A stretch of 56,350 nt of DNA from Balneolaceae bacterium (GTDB lineage: Bacteria > Bacteroidota > Rhodothermia > Balneolales > Balneolaceae), in NCBI GenBank assembly GCA_020832415.1, contig JAFIES010000030.1:1-56350 (forward strand), written 5' to 3'. The notes below the pieces were generated by a model that was not told the origin of the DNA, did no database searches, and worked only from the letters and a program-made list of their open reading frames with translations. The position numbers and the translations under genes are program-made. Shown in pieces: positions 1 through 55,370 of the stretch; the stretch's first letter is position 1; each line of letters begins with the position of its first letter.

Positions 1-2207
1 GCGTTGATTGATTCAGCCCCGCCACCCGTAAACAGGTCCATTATACCCATTCCCGGTATCTGACCGATGTGGTTTAAGTTGGTATTATTCACATACCCCC
101 ACAACCAGCCATCGGTTGACTCACCAAACCGATCCCTCAGATATGCCACTGCCTTTTGGAATGATATAAATAGTAGATCGTTCAGTGTCTCGGTATCATC
201 CGTCTGAACATTGTTAAATATGGGTGAATCAGGTTCATTAACGATCAGTTCTGCAGTGATGTCTCTCCAGGGGCGTCGCATGGGGTAATCGGCATCGAAT
301 TTATTATCCCAGATTTCACGATTCAATTCTACCCACCACCTTCTGAAGAGAGACGGCTCAATTTTATCACCATCATTCAGATAATCCCATTCAGCCAGCA
401 AGTCGATCAATGCACGTTCATGTGATTCAAGCTTGGTTCGGTCATCTGCAATTCGCTCAAGCATTGTGGGCAGTATGCTGTATGCATGATAACTGAAATT
501 ATCCATCAGCATCACTTTGAAATCATCTGTGGTGATATTATCCATCTCCGCAAGTAGGTCATTAATTCGGCGGCCGCGTTCGTAGGGCGCAAAATCGTCG
601 CCCAGATAGTATGGATAATCAACATCGGCAGGATATTGATTTGCCGCACTCAGAAAACCTCTATCGGGATTGAGTGAGTACGGATTCTGCTCATAGGGGA
701 TAAATTCGGTCCAGTCGTACAGGGGATCGGAACCATCGCCTACCGTTCTGCCCTGGAATTGCCATTTTACAGGAAATTTACCGCCGGTTTGAATCGCAAT
801 ATTTCCATCTATACCTGCATAATTCATGTTTTGTGCAGGCGCCTGATACGTTCGAAATGCTTCTCTGAAATCGTCATAATTCTGTGCCCGATTGAGCAAA
901 TAAAATGTTCGAAGCTCATTTGATGGTTCATGGGCAATCCATCGAAGTGCCAGATCTTTCTGATTAATTTCATTGATTGGAGTTTCGCGCACACTTTCGT
1001 AAACAGGCCCATGGTGCGTAAAGAGAATGGTATCGGTAACAGCCTCTCCGCTTTTGGTGTAGATTGTTTCGATACGGGTTTCAACAGGAAGCCACTCCCC
1101 ATCGTAGAGATACTCCGATTTCTTCTCATCCCTGAAGGTTATTTCGAGCCAGTCCATCACATCAGCGCCGGTATTTGTGGAACCCCAGGCGATATACTCA
1201 TTAAAGCCCACTATTACTGTTGGAGTACCCTGCAGAGTAACTCCATACACATTTTGATCGGGTGTGTGCAGCTGAACTTCGTACCAAATTGCCGGAGCGG
1301 ACATATTCAGATGCATATCATTGGCAAGTATAGGATATCCGGCTGCTGTTTTTGTGCCATCAACAACCCAGTTATTGCTGCCGTTAAACGGGTGCGGTTT
1401 CCACGGCTCAATCTGTTCTGTAAAACGAGGCTGATAAAGCGTATCGGGCCTCTCTGTCGGTATCGGTTCAAAATCCCATTCTGTTCCGGGTGGGATGATT
1501 GGATCCATTAAATCGGGGCGTTTGCTGAGATACCGATTCGCAAACTCTTCTCCCAGATATGCGATTGTATTACTGGTTTCCACTGCAGAATTTCTTCCGG
1601 CAAGCATTTGAGTCATGTACTTCAATAAGAGTGCAGTATGCAGAGGTTCCCACTGCTGTGGTTCCACACCCAGCACTTTGTATTCAACCGGAAACTTTTC
1701 GTAGTGAAGAGTAGCAATGTAGGCATTCACTCCGGCAGCATAAGCATCAAGAACACCTGAAATTAATTCATCACGGCCAATCTCCTCCATTGCCTGTTCT
1801 GCTCCATAAAGCATGCCAAGCCTGCGCTGATGGCGATCGTATGAAATGAGATCATCTCCCAGCCACTCTGCCAAAAAACCGCCTGCAGCTCTTATCTGTA
1901 ATTCCATCTGGAAGAGCCGGTCGCGAGCGGTTACATATCCCTGGGCAAAGTAGAGATCATGATCGTTTTCTGCGAAGATGTGGGGCACTCCGCGATCATC
2001 AAAGAAAACATCCACAGGCTGCTGCAAACCATCAACGGTCAAATGCAGCTCACCGGATACTTTTACAGTTTCAGCATTTGCCCAAAAGCCTGTAGAAGGA
2101 TGAAAAAACTGGCCAACCGGTGGTAATGGTCCCAAAGCTGTGGAATATATAAACCAGGTGATAACTGCAAAAAGTACAGTTGCCAACAGAGATATTTTTT
2201 TTGCCAT
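1..2207 (-). CDS. Penicillin acylase family N-terminal-nucleophile hydrolase, 3' end cut by window
   Basis: The frame is open from the ATG at 2207 to the window edge, giving 735 codons without a stop; the C-terminus is missing. The start is followed by a hydrophobic anchor (residues ~4-25), so the protein is probably exported. The hallmark is Gly-Ser at residues 276-277, followed by Asn-Asn-Trp-Val. In this family the precursor cuts itself before that Ser, which becomes the N-terminal nucleophile of the beta chain. About 250 residues of alpha-chain-like sequence precede it, which is the normal arrangement. Members hydrolyse amide bonds in penicillins, acyl-homoserine lactones or related amides; the substrate cannot be read here. 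It lies 68 bp downstream of the barrel gene on the same strand and may share its transcript. Family call is firm, substrate unknown. Confidence 0.88.
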   Translation of the reverse strand, partial: MAKKISLLATVLFAVITWFIYSTALGPLPPVGQFFHPSTGFWANAETVKVSGELHLTVDGLQQPVDVFFDDRGVPHIFAENDHDLYFAQGYVTARDRLFQMELQIRAAGGFLAEWLGDDLISYDRHQRRLGMLYGAEQAMEEIGRDELISGVLDAYAAGVNAYIATLHYEKFPVEYKVLGVEPQQWEPLHTALLLKYMTQMLAGRNSAVETSNTIAYLGEEFANRYLSKRPDLMDPIIPPGTEWDFEPIPTERPDTLYQPRFTEQIEPWKPHPFNGSNNWVVDGTKTAAGYPILANDMHLNMSAPAIWYEVQLHTPDQNVYGVTLQGTPTVIVGFNEYIAWGSTNTGADVMDWLEITFRDEKKSEYLYDGEWLPVETRIETIYTKSGEAVTDTILFTHHGPVYESVRETPINEINQKDLALRWIAHEPSNELRTFYLLNRAQNYDDFREAFRTYQAPAQNMNYAGIDGNIAIQTGGKFPVKWQFQGRTVGDGSDPLYDWTEFIPYEQNPYSLNPDRGFLSAANQYPADVDYPYYLGDDFAPYERGRRINDLLAEMDNITTDDFKVMLMDNFSYHAYSILPTMLERIADDRTKLESHERALIDLLAEWDYLNDGDKIEPSLFRRWWVELNREIWDNKFDADYPMRRPWRDITAELIVNEPDSPIFNNVQTDDTETLNDLLFISFQKAVAYLRDRFGESTDGWLWGYVNNTNLNHIGQIPGMGIMDLFTGGGAESIN

Positions 2208-2275
2208 CAGAAGTGATTTTTTTAACTGGAACGCTCTAATAGTAAATCTTTTACACCCAGCTTTGCAAGCTGCGA

Positions 2276-3046
2276 TTAAAATGAGATTAAAATACCATTT
2301 TTCAGCTCATAGGTAAGTTTTGGGATATCAATTACGGGATTGGCATCGTGCGTTAGCACAAAACTGACTGAAAAAAGAACCCATCTGCTCATACGGATAT
2401 TTAACTGATTTTCAAGTGTAACCCGAGGCTCAAAGAATCTTGAGGGCCTTGCCTGGTAATATCCGATTAAGAGAAGTGATGTTTGATCGGAAAGCCGTCC
2501 CCGCATGGAGATGTTATTTGTGCTTTTCAAAAAGTTGTTTTCGATTGCCTCTTCCCCCGAAAGCCGCCAGTTCTCGTACTCCTGCATCAATGCAGTGCTG
2601 AATCTGCCGGTTATGGCATCACGGGAAAGGAATGTGTACCTCACTCCCGCTCCGGCAAGCGCACGGCCTCTCAAGCCAAGATTGTTATTGTACTGATGCT
2701 GTATAAAAAGCTCGGGTGAAAGAGTTCTTTCCCGATAAAAAACACCTCTTAAATGCGCATAACCGCTGCTAACCAGCGATGCCCCGTCAACATTGATAAT
2801 TTCGAGATTGGTCAGAAAAACGTAGCTGTGCAGATTGGAGTAGTAAGCGGCGTTTGCCTGGTTTCCAAGTTTAAAAATACGGTCGTTGTATTTATTAACA
2901 GACAGGTCAAAACCGAGGTCTCCGTGCCAGCCTGTACTGTCGGCAAATGTTCGGATTCTCTCCACATTTAGAAGCTGGGCATGTAATGTTGAGTAACCGG
3001 TGAGAAAAATTAAACAGAGAAACAGTGTACTGCGAAAGAAAGCCAT
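2276..3046 (-). CDS. Outer-membrane beta-barrel protein, DUF481-like
   Basis: This 256-residue protein has a clear signal peptide (hydrophobic residues ~7-20 ending in HAQ). The rest is made of alternating amphipathic strands rich in Tyr, Asn, Arg and Leu, and it ends in Phe (ISF), the usual terminal signature of an outer-membrane barrel. The spacing of strands (GYAHLRG, FIQHQYNNN, GAGVRYTF) resembles DUF481/YdiY-like salt-induced outer-membrane proteins, but this is pattern recognition, not an alignment. It lies 32 bp after the erythromycin-esterase homologue in the same direction, so the two are likely co-transcribed. No ligand or function can be inferred. Barrel call is good, family call moderate. 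Confidence 0.65.
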   Translation of the reverse strand: MAFFRSTLFLCLIFLTGYSTLHAQLLNVERIRTFADSTGWHGDLGFDLSVNKYNDRIFKLGNQANAAYYSNLHSYVFLTNLEIINVDGASLVSSGYAHLRGVFYRERTLSPELFIQHQYNNNLGLRGRALAGAGVRYTFLSRDAITGRFSTALMQEYENWRLSGEEAIENNFLKSTNNISMRGRLSDQTSLLLIGYYQARPSRFFEPRVTLENQLNIRMSRWVLFSVSFVLTHDANPVIDIPKLTYELKNGILISF

Positions 3047-3078
3047 GAAATTCTTAGTTACAATGGTGTTGAATCAGA

Positions 3079-4371
3079 TCAATCAAGCGGAGAGAGTACG
3101 CCGGTTGTATGGATAAAGATAAATGCGTCATACCGCTCCGGGAGAAGCGATGGAACGTAATTTCCCTGGTCTGCAGCCGGGTTATATGTTACCCCGATTG
3201 CCCTGTGTGGTACGGGATTCCGGAGTTCGTTTATTATTTCATCCTGATCAAAAAGCAGGTACAGTTTTTCAAGGCCTGTCTGCATTAAAATGTGTTCCCA
3301 GCTGTCTGATTGTGCTTCGGGAGTTTCCATTGCCTGCATGGTTCCTTCCCAGCTGCTTGCAGCCAGAACTTCGCCCGTATAGGTACCAAAGCCGATTGCG
3401 AATGTATTGTTGCGACCAAGTGCATCGCGGCTCAGCTGACCAATATTTAGCACTCCCATCCGTCCCATATCTGTTGCACGGGCATCGCCGATATGCGTGT
3501 TATGTGCCCATACAATACCCCGGCTGTTATCACCATAAAACTCCAATAGCCTTTCTGCTGTAAGGTAAAAGTGCGATGCTCTGTGATTCCACGATGCCGC
3601 ACCACCCTCAATATTTGAGCGATAGTGCAGCTCTGCATTGATGGCTACTTTTGCGCCCTGTTCAGCCCGAAAATATTCCCATTCAGATATACCATCAGAA
3701 TCTCGAAGGGATTGAACCATTTCGAGCACCTGCTCAATATCATCCCCGCAATGCTGCCCCGTTCTGGCAACCATTTGTACGTAATTGCCGGGATCGGGGT
3801 GGCGTGTCATACAAGAATAGGCCCTGTCTGCAGTTCTGCCCAGGCTACTATCAACTGTATTGATCCAGCTTACTACATCCCGCATGGATGCCTCATGATC
3901 ATACACATCTATTCCATAAAGGCCCACTCTTTCGGTCGGTTCAAGCCCTGAATTATAATCGTGCAGCCACTCCACAAGGCTTTTGAACTCACTATTTTTC
4001 CACATCCAGAGCGGCCATCGCTGTAATGAGTTCATCACTTCAGATATATCGGCCGGTGCACCCGGTTTATGCTTTACATATTCATTGATTCTTGCCATCG
4101 ATGCCCAGTCACCCTCAACTGCAATAAAATTGAATCCCCTTTCCGAAATAAGATGCTTGCTCATTGCAGCACGTTTTGTGTAAAACTGAGAGGTTCCGTG
4201 CGATGCCTCTCCCATTAATACAAGCCGCTCTTCAGTGATGGCGTCTGTAAGTGTGGAAAGTTCAAACCGATCCTCAAATGGTACGGCATGTTGAAGAATC
4301 ACATCAGGTGATTGTGAAAATGAGTTTGTGAAGATTAATAAAAGGGGCAGAACAGCAAGCAGTTTTTTCAT
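3079..4371 (-). CDS. Erythromycin esterase family protein (EreA/EreB-like), secreted
   Basis: The 430-residue product starts with a signal peptide (KKLLAVLPLLLIFTNSFSQ). The core carries the family motifs: GEASHG near residues 54-59 (Glu55 and His58 match the EreB Glu/His pair), an EGDW motif near 86-89, and AHNTHIGD in the C-terminal half with the second His pair. These residues activate water for ester hydrolysis in EreB-type enzymes. Chromosomal homologues are common in Bacteroidota and many do not touch macrolides, so resistance should not be assumed. Export to the periplasm also differs from the cytoplasmic EreA and EreB resistance enzymes. The barrel gene follows it by 32 bp. Confidence 0.85.
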   Translation of the reverse strand: MKKLLAVLPLLLIFTNSFSQSPDVILQHAVPFEDRFELSTLTDAITEERLVLMGEASHGTSQFYTKRAAMSKHLISERGFNFIAVEGDWASMARINEYVKHKPGAPADISEVMNSLQRWPLWMWKNSEFKSLVEWLHDYNSGLEPTERVGLYGIDVYDHEASMRDVVSWINTVDSSLGRTADRAYSCMTRHPDPGNYVQMVARTGQHCGDDIEQVLEMVQSLRDSDGISEWEYFRAEQGAKVAINAELHYRSNIEGGAASWNHRASHFYLTAERLLEFYGDNSRGIVWAHNTHIGDARATDMGRMGVLNIGQLSRDALGRNNTFAIGFGTYTGEVLAASSWEGTMQAMETPEAQSDSWEHILMQTGLEKLYLLFDQDEIINELRNPVPHRAIGVTYNPAADQGNYVPSLLPERYDAFIFIHTTGVLSPLD

Positions 4372-4472
4372 GGGTATCGTATTGATTTTATGAATCGACC
4401 ATAAGATAAAAAAAGAGTGCAGGTGCTGAGTAATGGTTTCGTATTTATTCTTGCAAAATGCAGATGAATCTA

Positions 4473-5030
4473 TTACCCAGCCAATTCAAGTGTCTTTTCA
4501 GCCTGCCAAAAATGTCTTTTTTGATGTGAATGCCAGATCAGAATAAACTCTGTGAGCGACATTCTGATTTTAAACACAGAATTCTTCCCTTTAATTTTTT
4601 TCAGATCAAGATGGGAAGTTTCTGCCTCGTTAATTCTGGATATGATCTCTTTGTTTTGACGGATCAGCTCTTCAATATCCGTTTGATAATCTTTCGCCTC
4701 TGTAAGAAGAGGTTCCATTCTGTTGAGAGTTTTGATTTTCATTTTGTAGGGCGGGTTCAAAAAACTGATGAACATCCTGATCAAAAATCCCGGATAAAAA
4801 TCAGGCTGGTCGGTTGTCGGATTATCACTTTTTGAGATGGCTTTATCAATGAATCGAAGATACAGCTCATTAAACCGAACAAGATGTTGCACGATTTCAC
4901 CTGTACACCACACCTTATCTGATGGTTTATAAGAAAGCTTTTCAGGTGATAGCTTAGCAAGCTCTTCAGCTTTTTTGATGGATTCCTCGAAAAGCCCGGT
5001 TAACCCGGAGTATGTGTACCTCTTGCTCAT
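4473..5030 (-). CDS. DinB-like four-helix-bundle protein
   Basis: This 185-residue, mainly helical protein matches the DinB/YfiT superfamily pattern. His49 sits in an early helix (EIVQHLVRFNELY), and a His-rich final helix has His167, His169 and His173 (IWHSHQKRHFWQ). In this superfamily a His triad of this kind binds a divalent metal, often for thiol transfer, though many members have no known reaction. No membrane or signal segment is visible. It starts 6 bp after the stop of the GH3 gene, so the two belong to one transcript. Specific function unknown. Confidence 0.75.
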   Translation of the reverse strand: MSKRYTYSGLTGLFEESIKKAEELAKLSPEKLSYKPSDKVWCTGEIVQHLVRFNELYLRFIDKAISKSDNPTTDQPDFYPGFLIRMFISFLNPPYKMKIKTLNRMEPLLTEAKDYQTDIEELIRQNKEIISRINEAETSHLDLKKIKGKNSVFKIRMSLTEFILIWHSHQKRHFWQAEKTLELAG

Positions 5031-5036
5031 TTTATC

Positions 5037-6170
5037 TTAATTCCATGCGTTTTTGGCTGCCATAATTCTGTTGTACGATTCACGTATTCTCTCCTCAGTT
5101 ATCACCCCATCATCAATTAGATCTTTGATGATTCCGGTTACACGGGGCACAATTTCGGGATCATAGACCGAGTTATTGGCAAAAACAAGTACATCCACCC
5201 CGGCCAGTATGGCATTCTCCACAGCCATTTCCAGCCCGTAGTACGATCGGATTGCATCCATCTGCATATCATCAGAAAACAACACTCCTTCAAAACCGAT
5301 CTCCTCTCTTAATAAGCCGGTTTGTACCGATTTTGAGAGTGTAGCCGGCACATCCGGATCGAGATTCTCATTAAACACATGCGCTGTCATCACAGCAAAC
5401 GGGCTCTCTTTTTGAACCAAATTCTTGTATGGCTCCAGCTCAATCTCTTCCCACGTATCGGTTACATCGGCCATGCCCACATGAGAGTCGTTCCAGGCGC
5501 TTCCGTGGCCCGGAAAGTGTTTCAGAACTCCAAGTATGTTATACGCAGTAAACTCCTCGAGAAATATTGAGGCGTGGCTGGTCACCAGACCAGCATCTGC
5601 ACTAAAACTTCGGTCAAGCTGACCAATAACCGGGTTTTCAGGGTTGGTGTTCAGATCAACAACAGGAGCAAAGTTTACATTGAAACCGAGCTCATTTAAC
5701 TGCTTTGCCATGTTTGCCGCATAGTAGCGTGTGGAATCGGGATTGTTTAAATCGCCCAGATATTCAGCAGATACGTGTGGAGCAAACCCTCTGTCTGCCT
5801 TCAGCCGGGCCACGCGCCCTCCTTCCTGATCTACAGCCATAAAAAGCGGCAGCTCTGATAGATTCTGCAGATCAGAAATAAGCTTTTTAACCTGCTCGGG
5901 ACTGTCGATATTTCGATTAGGTGTGCGGGTTGGCATATCGTAATCAAAAAGAATAATTCCACCCGTATGGTACTCCCTGATATCGCGAATTACATGGGAT
6001 GTATCGCTAACTTCAAATCCTTTGAAGCCCACCATCAGCATCTGACCGATCTGTTTATCCAGCGATACCTCAACTTTTGAATCGGCTTTTTCTGATTCGT
6101 CTGAAAATGGCAACAAAATCAAAATGAGAGGAATAATTGAAGCAAAAATCTTTTGTATATGTGATAGCAT
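5037..6170 (-). CDS. Glycoside hydrolase family 3, beta-N-acetylhexosaminidase (NagZ-like)
   Basis: The protein has 377 residues with a hydrophobic N-terminus (~8-22), suggesting export. GH3 N-acetylglucosaminidase motifs are present: KHFPGHG at 217-223, followed by Asp228 and His230, the Asp-His dyad that NagZ-type enzymes use as general acid/base, and FSDD at 298-301 holding the nucleophilic Asp. It carries only the single TIM-barrel domain, as in NagZ, and no C-terminal GH3 domain. NagZ cuts GlcNAc from muropeptides in cell-wall recycling; a periplasmic form would do this before uptake. It is followed after 6 bp by the DinB-like gene and preceded at 30 bp by the cupin gene. Confidence 0.88.
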   Translation of the reverse strand: MLSHIQKIFASIIPLILILLPFSDESEKADSKVEVSLDKQIGQMLMVGFKGFEVSDTSHVIRDIREYHTGGIILFDYDMPTRTPNRNIDSPEQVKKLISDLQNLSELPLFMAVDQEGGRVARLKADRGFAPHVSAEYLGDLNNPDSTRYYAANMAKQLNELGFNVNFAPVVDLNTNPENPVIGQLDRSFSADAGLVTSHASIFLEEFTAYNILGVLKHFPGHGSAWNDSHVGMADVTDTWEEIELEPYKNLVQKESPFAVMTAHVFNENLDPDVPATLSKSVQTGLLREEIGFEGVLFSDDMQMDAIRSYYGLEMAVENAILAGVDVLVFANNSVYDPEIVPRVTGIIKDLIDDGVITEERIRESYNRIMAAKNAWN

Positions 6171-46447: not shown

Positions 46448-47032
46448 TTGAGCAAAAAAAACAATATTACTCCTGAATCTTCATTAAAAAAAGCCTGGAA
46501 CGAGGTTTTGAATGAAGTGCGTAAGGCTATTTCTGAAGCGCAACATCCATTCCGGTATGTTACACTTGCTACTGTCGATAATATGAATTCCCCTCAACAG
46601 AGAATGGTCGTGCTGCGGGATTTCAACGAAAAATCAGAGTTTTTGATCTATACTGACAGCAGATCTGATAAAGTCGCCGAGATCATGAAGAATAACTCAG
46701 TGAGCCTTCTGTTCTATCATAGTGAGATGAGATTACAACTTAGAGTTACAGGTAGTGCTGCCATCATACAATCAGGAGAGGAGTTTGATAAAGAGTGGGA
46801 TAGCCGGGGAAGTAAAAGTCCGCACTCCTACACATCCGTTCTTTCTCCGGGAACTTAGATTGGCAATCCGAAGGAGGCGTATCACTGGCAGCCGGAGGAA
46901 AAGCTAAACTTTTGTCTCATTAAAATAGAAGCGACTAACATGGAGTTTTTACAGCTGGATGGCATCAACCATATCCGGGCGGAGAAAATCATTCATGAGG
47001 GAAAAGAGGTCTTCCGCTGGATTGCTCCTTAA
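46448..47032 (+). pseudogene. Pyridoxamine-5'-phosphate-oxidase-like FMN protein split by in-frame TAG
   Basis: From a TTG start at 46448 the frame encodes a PPOx-type flavin protein (ATVDNMNSPQQRMVVLRDF, IYTDSRSDKVAEI, LLFYHSEMRLQLRVTGSA). TAG at 46856-46858 (codon 137) interrupts the sentence SVLSPGT-stop-IGNPKEAYHW. The same frame then continues with typical C-terminal sequence (PEEKLNFCLIKIE, MEFLQLDG, then H-I-R and WIAP) to a TAA at 47030-47032. The total of 194 sense positions is the normal length. Either a nonsense mutation, a sequencing error or readthrough is possible; function is probably lost. The product as read would lack the C-terminal FMN contacts. Confidence 0.85.
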
Positions 47033-47143: not shown

Positions 47144-49666
47144 ATGCCAAACCTATTTCATGTAAGAAGATTTCATCTGTTACTTTTCCCCGCACTGCTC
47201 CTGCTTCTAATCTATTTTGGCTGCCGTTCTTCGGAAATCATCATAGAAAAAGAACCCGCGGTACTTGAAGAGGAGATCGTTGAGACAGAGTCTGATTCGA
47301 CAACAATCTTACCGGAGATAATTTCCGCTGATGATATTATCGCTCCGTCTCGCGAATTCCGTGCAGCATGGGTAGCAACGGTTGCCAATATCGACTGGCC
47401 ATCCAGGCCGGGTTTGCCTGTTGAGCAGCAGCAAAGAGAGATGATCGAGCTGCTTGACCGAGCCGCATCACTCCATTTCAATGCAATTATCCTGCAGGTG
47501 CGTCCGGCTGCCGATGCACTATACAACTCACCCTATGAGCCATGGTCGTACTATCTCACCGGAAAAATGGGTGAAGCACCCCTGCCCAACTACGATCCGC
47601 TTGAATTTGCGATCCATGAAGCACATCGACGGGGAATGGAGCTGCACGCCTGGTTCAACCCCTACAGGGCACTGCATCCAACAAACCGATCTGAGATCTC
47701 ACCTGATCACATCAGCAGGACAAACCCGGACTATGTGAAACAATACGGCGACTTTTTATGGCTCGATCCCGGCAATCCCGATGCCAAAGAACACACACTA
47801 AATGTAATTCTGGATGTGGTTACACGATATGATATTGACGGTGTTCATTTTGATGACTACTTCTACCCCTATCCATCATACGCAAACGGGGCCGATTTTC
47901 CTGACGAAGAGAGCTGGCAGGCAGCTCAGCAAAACGGGAATACACTATCGCGGGGCGACTGGAGGCGTGAAAACGTAAATACTTTGATGAGGGAATTATC
48001 AGAGAGAATCAAAGAAGTAAAGCCTCATGTTAAATTCGGAATCAGCCCGTTTGGAATCTGGAGGCCCGGCTTTCCGGAAAATACTACCGGATTTGATGCA
48101 TACGAAAACCTCTATGCCGATGCACGTTTATGGCTTAAAGAAGGCTGGGTTGATTATTTTACACCACAGATTTACTATCGAATCGATCAGGATCCGCAGC
48201 CATTCCCGGTAATGCTTGAGTGGTGGATCGAACAGAATGATTTTGACAGACACATGTGGCCCGGCCTCTTTACAAGCCGTCTGAGAGAGGCTGATGGCAG
48301 CTGGCCGCAATCCGAAATAACCGGGCAGGTTTACACAGCACGCGGATTTCCAGGAGTAAGTGGCACTGTTCATTTCAGTATGCGCACATTTATGGAAAAT
48401 CCGGATCGGTTCAATCACAAAATGAGTGCCGGTCCTCACGCAAAACCTTCAGTAATTCCCGCTTCACACTGGCTTGGCAGCAGCCCGGAATCTGTGCCGG
48501 AAGCAGTACTTCGTGACTACGATGAGTATATTAATCTTCAATTTTCTGCACCTGAAGCAGATGATGTAACCTGGTGGATCATACGAACAAAAACTGCAGG
48601 AAACTGGGAGATAGATATTTTGCCCGGCAGCAGACACGAAATTAACTACTACAACGGAGAGGCATCCATCAGGCCCGATTCTGTCAGCATATCTTACCTG
48701 AATCGCGTTGGCCTGGAAAGCCCAATCATAAATATTAAGCACAATCTGGTTCAGCAAAAGCCGGCTGATTCAATCAGAGTTCAAAAACCTGCAATTATTC
48801 CGCGTACTACATGGGGAAATCATGCTCCTTCCGGTGTTGAAGCAAACGCAATCCGACAAAACATCGCAACCGGTGATACATTAAGGTTCAGAGATTTAAC
48901 CGTTATCTCAGGCGGAATGTTACGCTCTGCACCGGTTTCATCCAACCTGCTTAAACCGGGTGCTCCACATGGAGTTGATGAAGGTGAAGAACAGGAAACA
49001 ATCACACTGCAACTCTATAAAAATGGTGTTTCCGAGAGAATACAGGTTGAAAAGGGAGATGCATTTAACTGGTTTGGGTATCACATTGCTGTTTTAAATT
49101 CTGAATTCTCAACGGGCCGGCTACAGCTTGAAATTGCAACAGTGCAATCACTGCTTGTTGACAGGGCTGTCATGCGATCTGCAGGAAATGCATCACAGCG
49201 ATTTCGTATTCCACATAAGGTAAATCATATTACACTGCACCATACCGGCAGTAATGAGCCTCTCAATCAAAATGATGATCCCATCGAAATCCTCAACAAT
49301 CTGTTTGAATGGGGAGCTGCTGAGCAAAACTGGTGGGATGTGCCCTACCACTACTTAATCGATTTGGATGGAAATATCTACGAAGGGCGTGATGCAAATT
49401 TCGCCGGAGACACCAATACGTTGTATGATCCACGCGGGCATCTTTCTATCAGCCTGATGGGAAATTACAACCTTCAGCAGCCAACAGAATATCAGGTTGA
49501 TGCCACATCTGAATTGATGGCTTATCTGGTTGAAAAATACAACCTGTCTTCTGACGACCTGTATCTTCATCAAGATCATGCAGATACCAGTTGCCCCGGC
49601 GAGTATCTTGTTCCACTTCTGAAGGGAGGAATTTTACAGGATCGAATAGAGGTGTTGTTCAGATAG
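47144..49666 (+). CDS. DigH-like glycosidase (GHL10) fused to N-acetylmuramoyl-L-alanine amidase, lipoprotein
   Basis: This 840-residue lipoprotein has lipobox IYFGC (Cys27). The first domain (~70-400) is a GHL10/DUF187 glycosidase: FRAAWVATVANIDWPSRPG, AIILQVRPAADALY, WFNPYRA, DGVHFDDYFYPYP and FGISPFGIWRP; E. coli DigH (YddW) of this family cuts denuded peptidoglycan. A middle beta-rich linker (~450-680) follows. The last domain (686-830) is an Amidase_2/PGRP: zinc ligands His699 or His700 (LHHTG), His809 and Cys817 (HQDHADTSCPG), Tyr735. One protein thus holds an enzyme that strips stem peptides and one that cuts the bare glycan. No frameshift joins them; the frame is continuous. Confidence 0.9.
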   Translation: MPNLFHVRRFHLLLFPALLLLLIYFGCRSSEIIIEKEPAVLEEEIVETESDSTTILPEIISADDIIAPSREFRAAWVATVANIDWPSRPGLPVEQQQREMIELLDRAASLHFNAIILQVRPAADALYNSPYEPWSYYLTGKMGEAPLPNYDPLEFAIHEAHRRGMELHAWFNPYRALHPTNRSEISPDHISRTNPDYVKQYGDFLWLDPGNPDAKEHTLNVILDVVTRYDIDGVHFDDYFYPYPSYANGADFPDEESWQAAQQNGNTLSRGDWRRENVNTLMRELSERIKEVKPHVKFGISPFGIWRPGFPENTTGFDAYENLYADARLWLKEGWVDYFTPQIYYRIDQDPQPFPVMLEWWIEQNDFDRHMWPGLFTSRLREADGSWPQSEITGQVYTARGFPGVSGTVHFSMRTFMENPDRFNHKMSAGPHAKPSVIPASHWLGSSPESVPEAVLRDYDEYINLQFSAPEADDVTWWIIRTKTAGNWEIDILPGSRHEINYYNGEASIRPDSVSISYLNRVGLESPIINIKHNLVQQKPADSIRVQKPAIIPRTTWGNHAPSGVEANAIRQNIATGDTLRFRDLTVISGGMLRSAPVSSNLLKPGAPHGVDEGEEQETITLQLYKNGVSERIQVEKGDAFNWFGYHIAVLNSEFSTGRLQLEIATVQSLLVDRAVMRSAGNASQRFRIPHKVNHITLHHTGSNEPLNQNDDPIEILNNLFEWGAAEQNWWDVPYHYLIDLDGNIYEGRDANFAGDTNTLYDPRGHLSISLMGNYNLQQPTEYQVDATSELMAYLVEKYNLSSDDLYLHQDHADTSCPGEYLVPLLKGGILQDRIEVLFR

Positions 49667-49669
49667 AGA

Positions 49670-50050
49670 TTATCCTTCTTGAATCTCGAACAGCCTCTGA
49701 ATTGATCTTTTTAGCTGTGAATAGGTGATTGGTTTCCCAATGTAGTCGTGGTATCCAATCTCTGCGGCACGCTCTTTGTTTTTTGGATCGGTATTTCCGG
49801 TTATGTAGATAACCGGAATATCTTTTACCTCATTTATTCTTCGGTAAGCTTCAATTCCATCAATATCATCCTGAAGCATAATATCCATCAGAATCAGGTC
49901 AAAATCAGCCTCATTGCATTTTAAAACTGCACTTTGACCTTTTGTTACTTTTTCGTAGCGGCTGAACCCCATCTTTTTAAGCATATGTTCAAGCATCAGC
50001 TGAAGCACAAGTTCATCTTCAACTATCAAAATGTTTAGATCGGGTTTCAT
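49670..50050 (-). CDS. Single-domain response regulator
   Basis: The 126-residue receiver has Glu11-Asp12, phospho-acceptor Asp56 (ILMDIML), Thr84 (YITGN) and Lys106 (IGKPI), all intact. No output domain is present, and no kinase lies beside it; the nearest kinases are more than 30 kb away. It resembles the receiver at 8026-8388 in the VYITGN and KPI regions. It converges with the DigH-amidase gene (3-bp gap). Confidence 0.9.
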   Translation of the reverse strand: MKPDLNILIVEDELVLQLMLEHMLKKMGFSRYEKVTKGQSAVLKCNEADFDLILMDIMLQDDIDGIEAYRRINEVKDIPVIYITGNTDPKNKERAAEIGYHDYIGKPITYSQLKRSIQRLFEIQEG

Positions 50051-53389: not shown

Positions 53390-53869
53390 ATGAGTGAACC
53401 TGCTTTTCATAAAATTACCCCCCGGGCCATCCGTGTATGGCAATTTGGAAATTTAGTTGGCAATCTATTTTTCTTTGCCATTCCTGCAGCTTATGCCGCC
53501 GTTTTTGGACTCAATGATTTCCATTTTTGGATTGTAACATCGGCAACGTCCATCATTTTCATTGCCTGGATGCTCTCCATTTTTCTGATGCCTTATCTCA
53601 CCTGGAAAAACTGGCGATATGCCATCAATGAGAAAGAGATCGACCTGAAACGCGGTGTGCTTTTCAAAACACGTACGTTAATTCCCCTTAGCCGTGTGCA
53701 ACACGTAGATACAAGGCAGGGGCCGCTGCTTCGATGGTACAATCTTTCTACCGTAACCATCTCCACTGCAGCAACTACTCACGAAATTCCCGGACTTGAT
53801 ACCCAGCTTGCTGACAGAGTTCGCCGGCAAATTTCAACCTACGCACGCCTCGCAGAAGACGATGTCTGA
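53390..53869 (+). CDS. Bacterial PH-domain membrane protein (YdbS-like)
   Basis: The 159-residue protein has two membrane helices (~18-40 and ~47-70) followed by one bPH_2 domain (~75-155; YAINEKEIDLKRGVLFKTRTLIPLSRVQHVDT). This is the YdbS layout. Its last codons overlap the start of the ydbT-like gene by 8 bp (53862-53869), which points to translational coupling and a complex of the two. The role in Bacteroidota is unknown; YdbS/YdbT affect susceptibility to lantibiotic stress in Bacillus. Confidence 0.88.
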   Translation: MSEPAFHKITPRAIRVWQFGNLVGNLFFFAIPAAYAAVFGLNDFHFWIVTSATSIIFIAWMLSIFLMPYLTWKNWRYAINEKEIDLKRGVLFKTRTLIPLSRVQHVDTRQGPLLRWYNLSTVTISTAATTHEIPGLDTQLADRVRRQISTYARLAEDDV

Positions 53870-55370
53870 ATTTGAACGACAACATCCCATAGCAGCAGTC
53901 AGCCGTGCATTCGGATTAATCCGCGGCAACTTTATTACTATTCTGATTTTTCTGTTTGTTGGCGCCCAAAGCGATAATTTTCCGTTTTTATGGTGGATTG
54001 GCGGCGGTTTTGGGTTGCTGCTGGTACTTGGTGTTGCCAACTGGTGGCGATTTCTCTATAAAATAGAAGATGGAACCCTTCACATAAAAAGCGGCATATT
54101 CGTAAGAAAAGATCTCTACCTCACGAAAGACCGTATTCAGGTAATCGATGTCACATCCGGCCTTCTTCAGAGAATGTTCGGTTTGGTTCGGCTTGATATT
54201 CAAACGGCAGGTTCAAGCTCTCGCCAGGCTGCCATTGATGCTATTACGAAAGTTAAAGCGGCTGAAGTAAACCGCATGCTCCGCCAGGCCGGAGCGGTAA
54301 ATACTGAAGATTCGATCGAAAACCAGGAGTTTGAAGATACCCCACTCACTGAGCAAGAGCTGTTAAAGAGAATTAAGCTGCCGGCCAAAGAGCTGCTGAT
54401 TGCAGCTTCAACTTCCGGCAGTTTTGGTATTGCACTCTCCATCATAGCTACTGTTTTTTCTCAGATAGAGCCACTCATCTCGGAATCGGAGTTGTTTGAA
54501 TATCTGTTTGGCATGCTGCCTTCTCAAACCGATACCATAATGATTATTACGGTAATCGCCGTTTTTGTGGTTTTTGCCTGGCTGTTATCGTTTTTCAGCA
54601 CACTTTTCACCTACGGTAATTTTCAGCTCGATGTGAAAGAGAAAGAGATTGTGGTATCTCGCGGTATTTTCGAAAAAAAACGAATTACCGTTCCATTTAA
54701 TCGTATTCAAGCCATTCATATTACCGAAGGTATCATCCGGCAGCCATTGGGATATGCATCTGTTCACCTCGAAAGTGCCGGCTATGGGGATGACAAAGGC
54801 ACGGGCTCCATTGTACTTTATCCGCTCATTCGGATCAACAATCTGAAGAAGCTGCTTAACGATGTACTGCCTGATTACCAGAAAGAGTTTGAAGGAACCC
54901 GACCGCCGGGCCGATCAGCACGTCGCTATATTTTCAGATCGTCATTTTTGGTGACCGCAATCACAGGGTTTGTCTATTGGCAGATGGCACTTAATGTGTG
55001 GATTTGGCTCATTCCGGTCATATCACTCATCTGGGGCTGGAAAAAATACAGCGATGCAGCACTCGGATGGAGTGATGATATGTTTCTGCTGAGAAACAGA
55101 AGATTATCCCGATCTACCGCTTTCATTAAAAAGAAACGTGTACAGGATGCAAGCATGATCCAGAGCCCTTTTCAAAAGCTACGTGATCTTGCATCTGTTC
55201 AGGTATTTGTGGCCTCCGGTGATCGCGGAAAATCGTTCCAGGTGCGAGATCTTGAAATAGAAGATGCAAAAAAACTTATCCATCAGCTTCGGAAAAATGG
55301 AGTCTCTACTACCGATTCAGCTGAGGATGAGTTAAAATCCAATCAACCAAAATTGCCCGGCTGGAACTAA
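53862..55370 (+). CDS. Bacterial PH-domain membrane protein (YdbT-like)
   Basis: The ATG at 53862 gives 502 residues and overlaps the ydbS-like stop; an ATG at 53796 lies inside the other gene and is less likely. Four to six membrane helices separate three bPH_2 repeats: the first ~60-145 (KIEDGTLHIKSGIFVRKDLYLTKDRIQVIDV), the second ~245-340 (KEKEIVVSRGIFEKKRITVPFNRIQAIHI) and the third ~395-485 (MFLLRNRRLSRSTAFIKKKRVQDAS). Each has the same RxQ-type motif. Domain order matches YdbT. Confidence 0.88.
   Translation: MSEFERQHPIAAVSRAFGLIRGNFITILIFLFVGAQSDNFPFLWWIGGGFGLLLVLGVANWWRFLYKIEDGTLHIKSGIFVRKDLYLTKDRIQVIDVTSGLLQRMFGLVRLDIQTAGSSSRQAAIDAITKVKAAEVNRMLRQAGAVNTEDSIENQEFEDTPLTEQELLKRIKLPAKELLIAASTSGSFGIALSIIATVFSQIEPLISESELFEYLFGMLPSQTDTIMIITVIAVFVVFAWLLSFFSTLFTYGNFQLDVKEKEIVVSRGIFEKKRITVPFNRIQAIHITEGIIRQPLGYASVHLESAGYGDDKGTGSIVLYPLIRINNLKKLLNDVLPDYQKEFEGTRPPGRSARRYIFRSSFLVTAITGFVYWQMALNVWIWLIPVISLIWGWKKYSDAALGWSDDMFLLRNRRLSRSTAFIKKKRVQDASMIQSPFQKLRDLASVQVFVASGDRGKSFQVRDLEIEDAKKLIHQLRKNGVSTTDSAEDELKSNQPKLPGWN

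Follow-up and report, generated by a model that had tools for sequence, protein, structure and literature searches.

A GHL10 glycosidase joined to a zinc amidase in Rhodohalobacter, and its relatives encoded as neighboring genes

Why would a bacterium encode a glycan-cutting enzyme and a peptidoglycan amidase as one protein, and would the two act in succession? The question is raised by a gene on contig JAFIES010000030.1 of a Balneolaceae bacterium (assembly GCA_020832415.1; the whole 56,350-nucleotide stretch is called the window here), whose product combines a GHL10 glycosidase with a zinc amidase of the Amidase_2 family. We favor, with modest confidence, the view that it is an envelope protein, probably lipid-anchored, which breaks down peptidoglycan by two linked reactions, the amidase acting before the GHL10 barrel, with a role in wall turnover or cell separation. 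The C-terminal zinc amidase would free stem peptides from N-acetylmuramic acid, and the N-terminal barrel would then cut the exposed glycan, as a muramidase/lytic transglycosylase or as a glucosaminidase. The fusion may have arisen by the joining of two proteins that are encoded by neighboring genes in some Gemmatimonadota.

Two enzymes in one chain

The gene is a single uninterrupted frame on the forward strand, running from the ATG at position 47144 to the stop codon ending at 49666 and encoding 840 amino acids (aa). A sequence-only reading of the window had placed both enzymes in one continuous frame, and a hidden Markov model comparison of each half confirms it: GHL10 (PF02638) matches aa 71-364 with an E-value of 5e-70 and 236.5 bits (Pfam cut-off 27.9), and Amidase_2 (PF01510) matches aa 691-820 with an E-value of 1.6e-16 and 61.2 bits (cut-off 26). 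Near-full-length homologues exist in 17 of the 27 other genomes of the genus, Rhodohalobacter, in a search of 58 genomes, which rules out a mis-assembly or chance fusion.

For the lipobox that had been proposed for this protein, the sequence points both ways. There is a signal peptide, and Cys27 is kept in all 20 fused proteins of the same lineage (the first of two, see below) whose N-terminus is available, with Arg28 in 18 of the 20; the motif itself, Y-F-G-C27, is atypical, differing at -3 and -2 from what we take to be the textbook pattern. The window protein is probably a lipid-anchored envelope protein.

In a PDB sequence search the N-terminal half matches Cwp19 of C. difficile with an E-value of 1.6e-84. 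The window protein is also 36% identical over 371 aa (E 2e-70) to Escherichia coli DigH, as taken from the annotated K-12 record, so that its description as a DigH-like GHL10 glycosidase was apt. No NCBIfam model scored above its cut-off on the window protein, nor did any glycosidase family other than GHL10 in Pfam or NCBIfam. The Cwp19 structure paper lists 13 likely active-site residues (PMC5765458), and 12 of these are identical in the PDB-search alignment, read by hand: W76, Q118, W170, R175, D237, D238, Y239, S301, Q342, Y344, F411, and S412, the last two of which fall outside the Pfam match. Cwp19 Gly328 is aligned with Trp372, and the DigH alignment has a common Gly at 374, leaving this position ambiguous. 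Free-standing GHL10 proteins of order-level relatives (L021-L024) stop after the region equivalent to approximately aa 425-547.

The C-terminal half had been described as a zinc amidase with all of its ligands, and the alignment agrees: the triad H699, H809, and C817 is present, together with Y735 and T815. A His-His-Cys zinc triad with a Tyr is the amidase motif; we assume the ligand role of H699, H809, and C817 from their alignment to known amidases, and Y735 presumably corresponds to the catalytic Tyr found in T7 lysozyme and PGRP-LB. In the PDB sequence search this half matches peptidoglycan recognition proteins (PGRPs) and phage amidases best, with E-values of 2e-10 to 4e-10. Modeled with AlphaFold2 from 27 sequences, aa 548-840 give a mean predicted local distance difference test score (pLDDT) of 91.5, and the model matches PGRP-SD with a Z of 21.6 and 2.2 Å over 160 residues (aligned range 1..286 of 293). 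According to the model, the amidase half has the PGRP fold with an added insert. An I..R..W segment (aa 548-560) aligns with the PGRP N-terminus, the first strand of the amidase core begins at about aa 691, and plain amidases in the phylum search match the C-terminal profile only from about position 121-152 onward, that is, past the insert.

The insert itself (aa 561-678) has no Pfam match and, modeled alone, gives a pLDDT of 86.4. Structurally it comes closest to CcsBA (Foldseek E 2.8e-3; VIA Z 9.2, 3.4 Å, 99 residues, 7% identity), barely above unrelated folds (Z 7-8.5); we therefore treat the match as a lead only and do not assign the insert to a known domain. As modeled, a beta insert interrupting a PGRP domain is new here; the sequence-only reading had mentioned neither this insert nor the recurring loss of the amidase site among relatives.

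Distribution, neighboring genes, and a second fused lineage

The fusion is common in the genus but dispensable. Counting the window's own genome, it occurs in 18 of 28 Rhodohalobacter genomes, and the other 10 have no match; among genomes with completeness of 90% or more and contamination of 5% or less, 13 of 18 carry it and five have no match. The copy of Rhodohalobacter sulfatireducens (L060) is identical over its last 300 residues to L015 of genome G015. The 58-genome search found it in none of seven genomes from seven other genera of the family, and found GHL10 proteins lacking the amidase half in several genomes of other families; Fodinibius roseus (L065), outside that sample, also carries the fusion. 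Across 296 genomes of the phylum, GHL10 is present in 151 (at E 1e-20) and the C-terminal profile is matched in 42 (at 1e-15); the insert and amidase occur together in five, all of them Rhodohalobacter. The window's own genome (95% complete) has the window fusion as its single Amidase_2 match, along with two GHL10, two Amidase_3, one NamZ_N, and four SPOR matches.

One genome of the sample (G005) has three copies of the fusion, one of full length, one truncated in the insert region (C3), and one cut by a contig end (C9); the two partial copies were not counted as natural amidase-less forms. At one locus of this genome (L033, 4412-16338) the fusion gene and a neighboring gene for a large secreted-looking protein are locally duplicated, and the second fusion copy is truncated in the insert region, ahead of the amidase core.

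Outside the Balneolaceae, the insert-bearing amidase (hereafter insert-amidase) occurs without the glycosidase. An alignment scan of named genomes with the C-terminal half gave 31 loci, five with frames open at a contig end (L056, L067, L074, L078, L084). GHL10 is fused in 14 Balneolaceae loci and in one Bacteroidetes metagenome-assembled genome (MAG; GSL.Bin13, L084). The other 16 loci (L068-L083) come from ten Gemmatimonadota, three Sumerlaeota, one UBP4, one unclassified pond MAG, and one Rhodothermia MAG, and 15 of them have insert-amidase frames of 241-400 aa without GHL10; L078 could be fused or free, because a contig end cuts its frame inside the insert. In the phylum of genome G346, the insert-amidase was found in nine of 200 genomes, with no frame longer than 567 aa.

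In some of these bacteria the two enzymes are encoded side by side, which makes it probable that they function together. The insert-amidase gene of G346 (L077/L125) ends at 2508 and is followed by two GHL10 genes (2505-3710 and 3707-5290), each overlapping the gene before it by 4 bases. In G358 (L122) a 20-base gap separates the end of the insert-amidase gene, at 1451, from the GHL10 start at 1472. G347 (L127) has the gene order of the fusion: a GHL10 frame (661-2451, reverse strand) precedes, on the same strand, an insert-amidase frame whose start falls within 1-639 and which continues past the contig end, the GHL10 stop lying at least 18 bases ahead of it. The GHL10 proteins of these pairs are 51-58% identical to the window barrel, apart from the first GHL10 of G346 (only 30%); the other three group together in the GHL10 tree (support 97/93).

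A same-strand GHL10 neighbor is thus found in three of the 22 genomes (16 plus six, from two genome sets) that have the insert-amidase outside the Balneolaceae. With uniform placement and contig ends ignored, chance would give 0.065 pairs within 1.5 kb (P of three or more approximately 3e-5) and 0.22 pairs within 5 kb (P approximately 0.001). In a set of 12 genomes, GHL10 lies near an amidase in G358 and in G479 (the latter on opposite strands, approximately 1.6 kb apart); in the window's phylum, inspection by eye of the matches listed gave one non-fused pair within 10 kb, in G225, where the genes converge. The amidases of G479 and G225 are plain, and their GHL10 neighbor is on the opposite strand.

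As a separate observation, G347 has two insert-amidase pieces at the ends of two contigs (56 and 385; L127 and L128). They differ where they overlap, so they represent two copies or two strains rather than one gene.

A second lineage joins the same two families. G296 and G311, members of one family in another class, encode frames of 722 and 707 aa with GHL10 followed by Amidase_2, without the insert. In a 47-row amidase tree their amidases lie outside the insert clade (100/99), and a single clade of all fused amidases is rejected, marginally, by an approximately unbiased (AU) test run after the first tree was known (p-AU 0.038). The second lineage has its closest amidase in genome G035, where it is a separate protein (92/93), and the amidase-less GHL10 of the same genome groups with the GHL10 of the second lineage (100/100). 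The GHL10 tree unites the first fused lineage in a single clade (100/98), which also includes the truncated copy L033, and it places the GHL10 domains of both fused lineages and G035 as sisters (91/93). Related GHL10 domains are therefore joined to two types of amidase, implying either two fusions or one fusion and a later amidase swap. L041 and L042 were dropped from both amidase trees; L017, L018, L019, L020, L084, L097, and L123, which have long or unsure branches, are absent from the 47-row tree and present in the first; and the GHL10 tree omits L067 and L084, which contig ends truncate. Two further AU tests were left unused, as their tested groups omitted L033.

After removal of 11 duplicates, the residue comparison covered 24 fused proteins, of which 22 belong to the first lineage and two to the second. 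In the first lineage 16 have an intact zinc triad and six (L018, L019, L020, L066, L067, and L084) an altered one. L018-L020 are one GHL10 clade (100/99); L066 and L067, both with Gly in place of the ligand Cys, are one amidase clade; and the placement of L084 in the amidase tree is unsure, so the triad was lost two or three times. All six retain every GHL10 site that is available, L067 and L084 being cut by contig ends. This combination of lost triads and kept GHL10 residues points to the glycosidase as the constant function. Both proteins of the second lineage have intact triads, with F411 replaced by Trp in both and S412 by Asn in one. Among free-standing insert-amidases, the triad is kept in 19 of 19.

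Coupled steps and alternative roles

Stripping followed by cutting has a precedent in SpoIIP, which strips, and SpoIID, which cuts (PMC6221140), and DigH degrades denuded glycan specifically and accumulates at midcell (PMC12288456). The sequence-only reading had linked the two halves of the window protein in this way; the same-strand gene pairs and the second fused lineage lend indirect support to a shared pathway, though not to its order, which we infer. That reading's placement at the septum and at the inner face of the outer membrane would be conjecture for this protein. Several observations weigh against coupling. Cwp19, a lytic transglycosylase, turns peptide-bearing Micrococcus peptidoglycan into anhydro-muropeptides (PMC6016235). 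The gene order in two of the three adjacent pairs is the reverse of that in the fusion, adjacency is rare (the three of 22 above), and GHL10/Amidase_2 adjacency is not a general rule in the window's phylum. In the amidase-dead lineages, the glycosidase would be independent of an active amidase in the same chain, which speaks against an obligate need for it.

The same points bear on the alternatives. An uncoupled bifunctional autolysin, in which GHL10 cuts peptide-bearing peptidoglycan, the amidase acts independently, and the fusion only co-localizes them for turnover, recycling, or autolysis, seems to us unlikely, yet deserves to be taken seriously: the anhydro-muropeptides come from Cwp19, the closest solved relative, GHL10 residues outlast the amidase triad in some fused relatives, and S. 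aureus Atl unites an amidase with a glucosaminidase in a chain that proteolysis splits (PMC6262408). The denuded-specific activity of the relative DigH (PMC12288456) and the neighboring genes and second fusion, which favor a shared pathway, count against it. The loss of the triad in six of 22 proteins, in two or three groups and with the domain retained, would also fit an amidase half that serves chiefly as a peptidoglycan-binding module targeting the glycosidase, as in non-catalytic animal PGRPs, the more so since free-standing forms keep the triad without exception; for the window protein, whose own triad, Tyr, and Thr are intact, this is improbable. A broader possibility, which we advance tentatively and hold to be doubtful, concerns the fused lineage as a whole: a catalytic PGRP amidase may repeatedly be becoming a non-catalytic recognition module, like those animal PGRPs, that aims a denuded-glycan glycosidase, with the beta insert linking the two active sites or guiding substrate between them.

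Two further roles would lie outside the cell's own wall metabolism or outside peptidoglycan. The atypical lipobox and the patchy presence within the genus (18 of 28 genomes) could suit an outward-facing lytic or scavenging enzyme directed against the peptidoglycan of other bacteria, but GHL10 is widespread (151 of 296 phylum genomes) and Pfam finds no toxin, secretion, or immunity family among ten neighboring genes, so that we rate this a shade more improbable still. That the GHL10 half cuts another polysaccharide, for example an exopolysaccharide, is suggested by fold kin such as PgaB, which act on other glycans (PMC5765458); peptidoglycan is the substrate of both tested relatives, DigH and Cwp19 (PMC12288456, PMC6016235), and the barrel is fused, or adjacent, to an amidase of a peptidoglycan family, which makes it the least credible of these alternatives. 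The coupled enzyme that we favor most likely contributes to wall turnover or to the separation of daughter cells, alongside other enzymes of overlapping function and not as an essential splitter: the two Amidase_3 and four SPOR matches of the window's genome and the ten of 28 genomes without the fusion argue for an auxiliary role and against a core function in division.

The window protein differs from each of the known systems that it resembles. It shares its barrel with DigH (YddW), a GHL10 lipoprotein that likewise has a signal peptide followed by a Cys; DigH, however, is 439 aa long, of which the aligned barrel takes up 53-416, so that an amidase half would not fit, and for this reason the 840-aa window protein is not filed as DigH. 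Midcell location and denuded specificity are, in the available part of the source, demonstrated for DigH only (PMC12288456). Cwp19 has 12 of its 13 listed active-site residues in common with the window protein, but is a Gram-positive surface protein with CWB2 repeats, for which the available part of the source describes no amidase domain (PMC6016235). Atl-type autolysins likewise combine an amidase with a glycan-cutting domain in one chain, the window protein being known by its domains, and an amidase joined to a glycan-cutting enzyme is thus an already known kind (PMC6262408). Atl has the amidase first and the glucosaminidase last and is proteolytically split (PMC6262408), whereas the window protein has GHL10 first and is probably lipid-anchored. 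Its glycosidase is of GHL10 and not of the Atl glucosaminidase family, so that it may work like Atl without being a member. SpoIIP and SpoIID represent the same proposed chemistry, an amidase followed by a denuded-specific lytic transglycosylase, and presumably belong to families other than those of the window protein. They are separate proteins united by SpoIIM (PMC6221140).

Amidase_2 is also joined to a second glycosidase family. In G179 and G279 it is fused to NamZ_N and NamZ_C, and we observed this architecture at two loci of one Bacteroidota family (L093, 1760-3625, forward strand; L094, 303-2114, reverse strand). These proteins, like the window protein, combine Amidase_2 with a glycosidase; their NamZ domains belong to another Pfam family (an exo-muramidase by its Pfam name), and their amidase is N-terminal and lacks the insert.

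Among the open-licence PMC papers that our searches listed, judged mostly from titles and the beginnings of abstracts, we met neither a joining of GHL10 to an amidase nor its two-gene form, and neither the insert in the PGRP domain nor the recurrent loss of the amidase site. Work in E. coli on how peptide-free strands pass from amidases to DigH-like enzymes has dealt with separate proteins. The fusion, the two-gene form in another phylum, the second fusion with another amidase, and the dead-amidase relatives form a ready set for testing whether the step sequence is obligate and whether a single chain is needed.

Features of the gene and its surroundings

Table 1. Features of the GHL10-amidase gene and its downstream neighbor, in window coordinates
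Feature	Coordinates	Strand	Remarks
GHL10-amidase fusion coding sequence	47144..49666	+	Stop codon 49664-49666; near-full-length homologues in 17/27 other same-genus genomes
Signal peptide with putative lipid-attachment Cys27 (Y-F-G-C, then R28)	47144..47224	+	Cys conserved across relatives
GHL10 (PF02638) catalytic barrel	47354..48235	+	Pfam aa 71-364; Cwp19 homology extends to aa 417
C-terminal region of the GHL10 half, approximately aa 425-547	48416..48784	+	Without Pfam match
N-terminal PGRP segment, aa 548-560 (I..R..W)	48785..48823	+	Structurally part of the amidase domain; parted from the core by the insert
All-beta insert within the PGRP domain, aa 561-678 as modeled	48824..49177	+	No Pfam family; weak resemblance to the CcsBA periplasmic domain
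Amidase_2/PGRP core, aa 691-820	49214..49603	+	
Zinc ligand H699	49238..49240	+	Alignment position
Y735	49346..49348	+	Residue present
Zinc ligand H809	49568..49570	+	Alignment position
Zinc ligand C817	49592..49594	+	Alignment position; T815 two residues earlier
Single-domain response regulator (PF00072), convergent neighbor	49670..50050	-	3 bases from the fusion stop

The response regulator downstream of the fusion (Table 1) recurs at 71-85% identity in four of ten same-genus loci compared (L033, L045, L046, and L048) and at 28-30% identity in two further loci of the ten. Upstream, a pyridoxamine-phosphate-oxidase-like gene (46448-46858, forward strand) stops early at an in-frame stop codon, and family sequence continues beyond it in the same frame; its counterparts in G002 and G013 (L045 and L046) are open through this position, and the early stop is either a young pseudogene or a sequence error. 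Farther downstream, two overlapping frames (53390-55370, forward strand) carry bacterial PH domains (bPH_2), in one and three stretches.

Elsewhere, three GHL10 or amidase proteins have a C-terminal domain that resembles a sorting signal (L034 in G008, 1823-3868, reverse strand; L041, 2432-5119, forward strand; L124, 1427-3634, forward strand). Their end domains contain a YPNPFNP motif that we take to be similar to the type IX secretion sorting signal, and relatives of either half may therefore use another export route.

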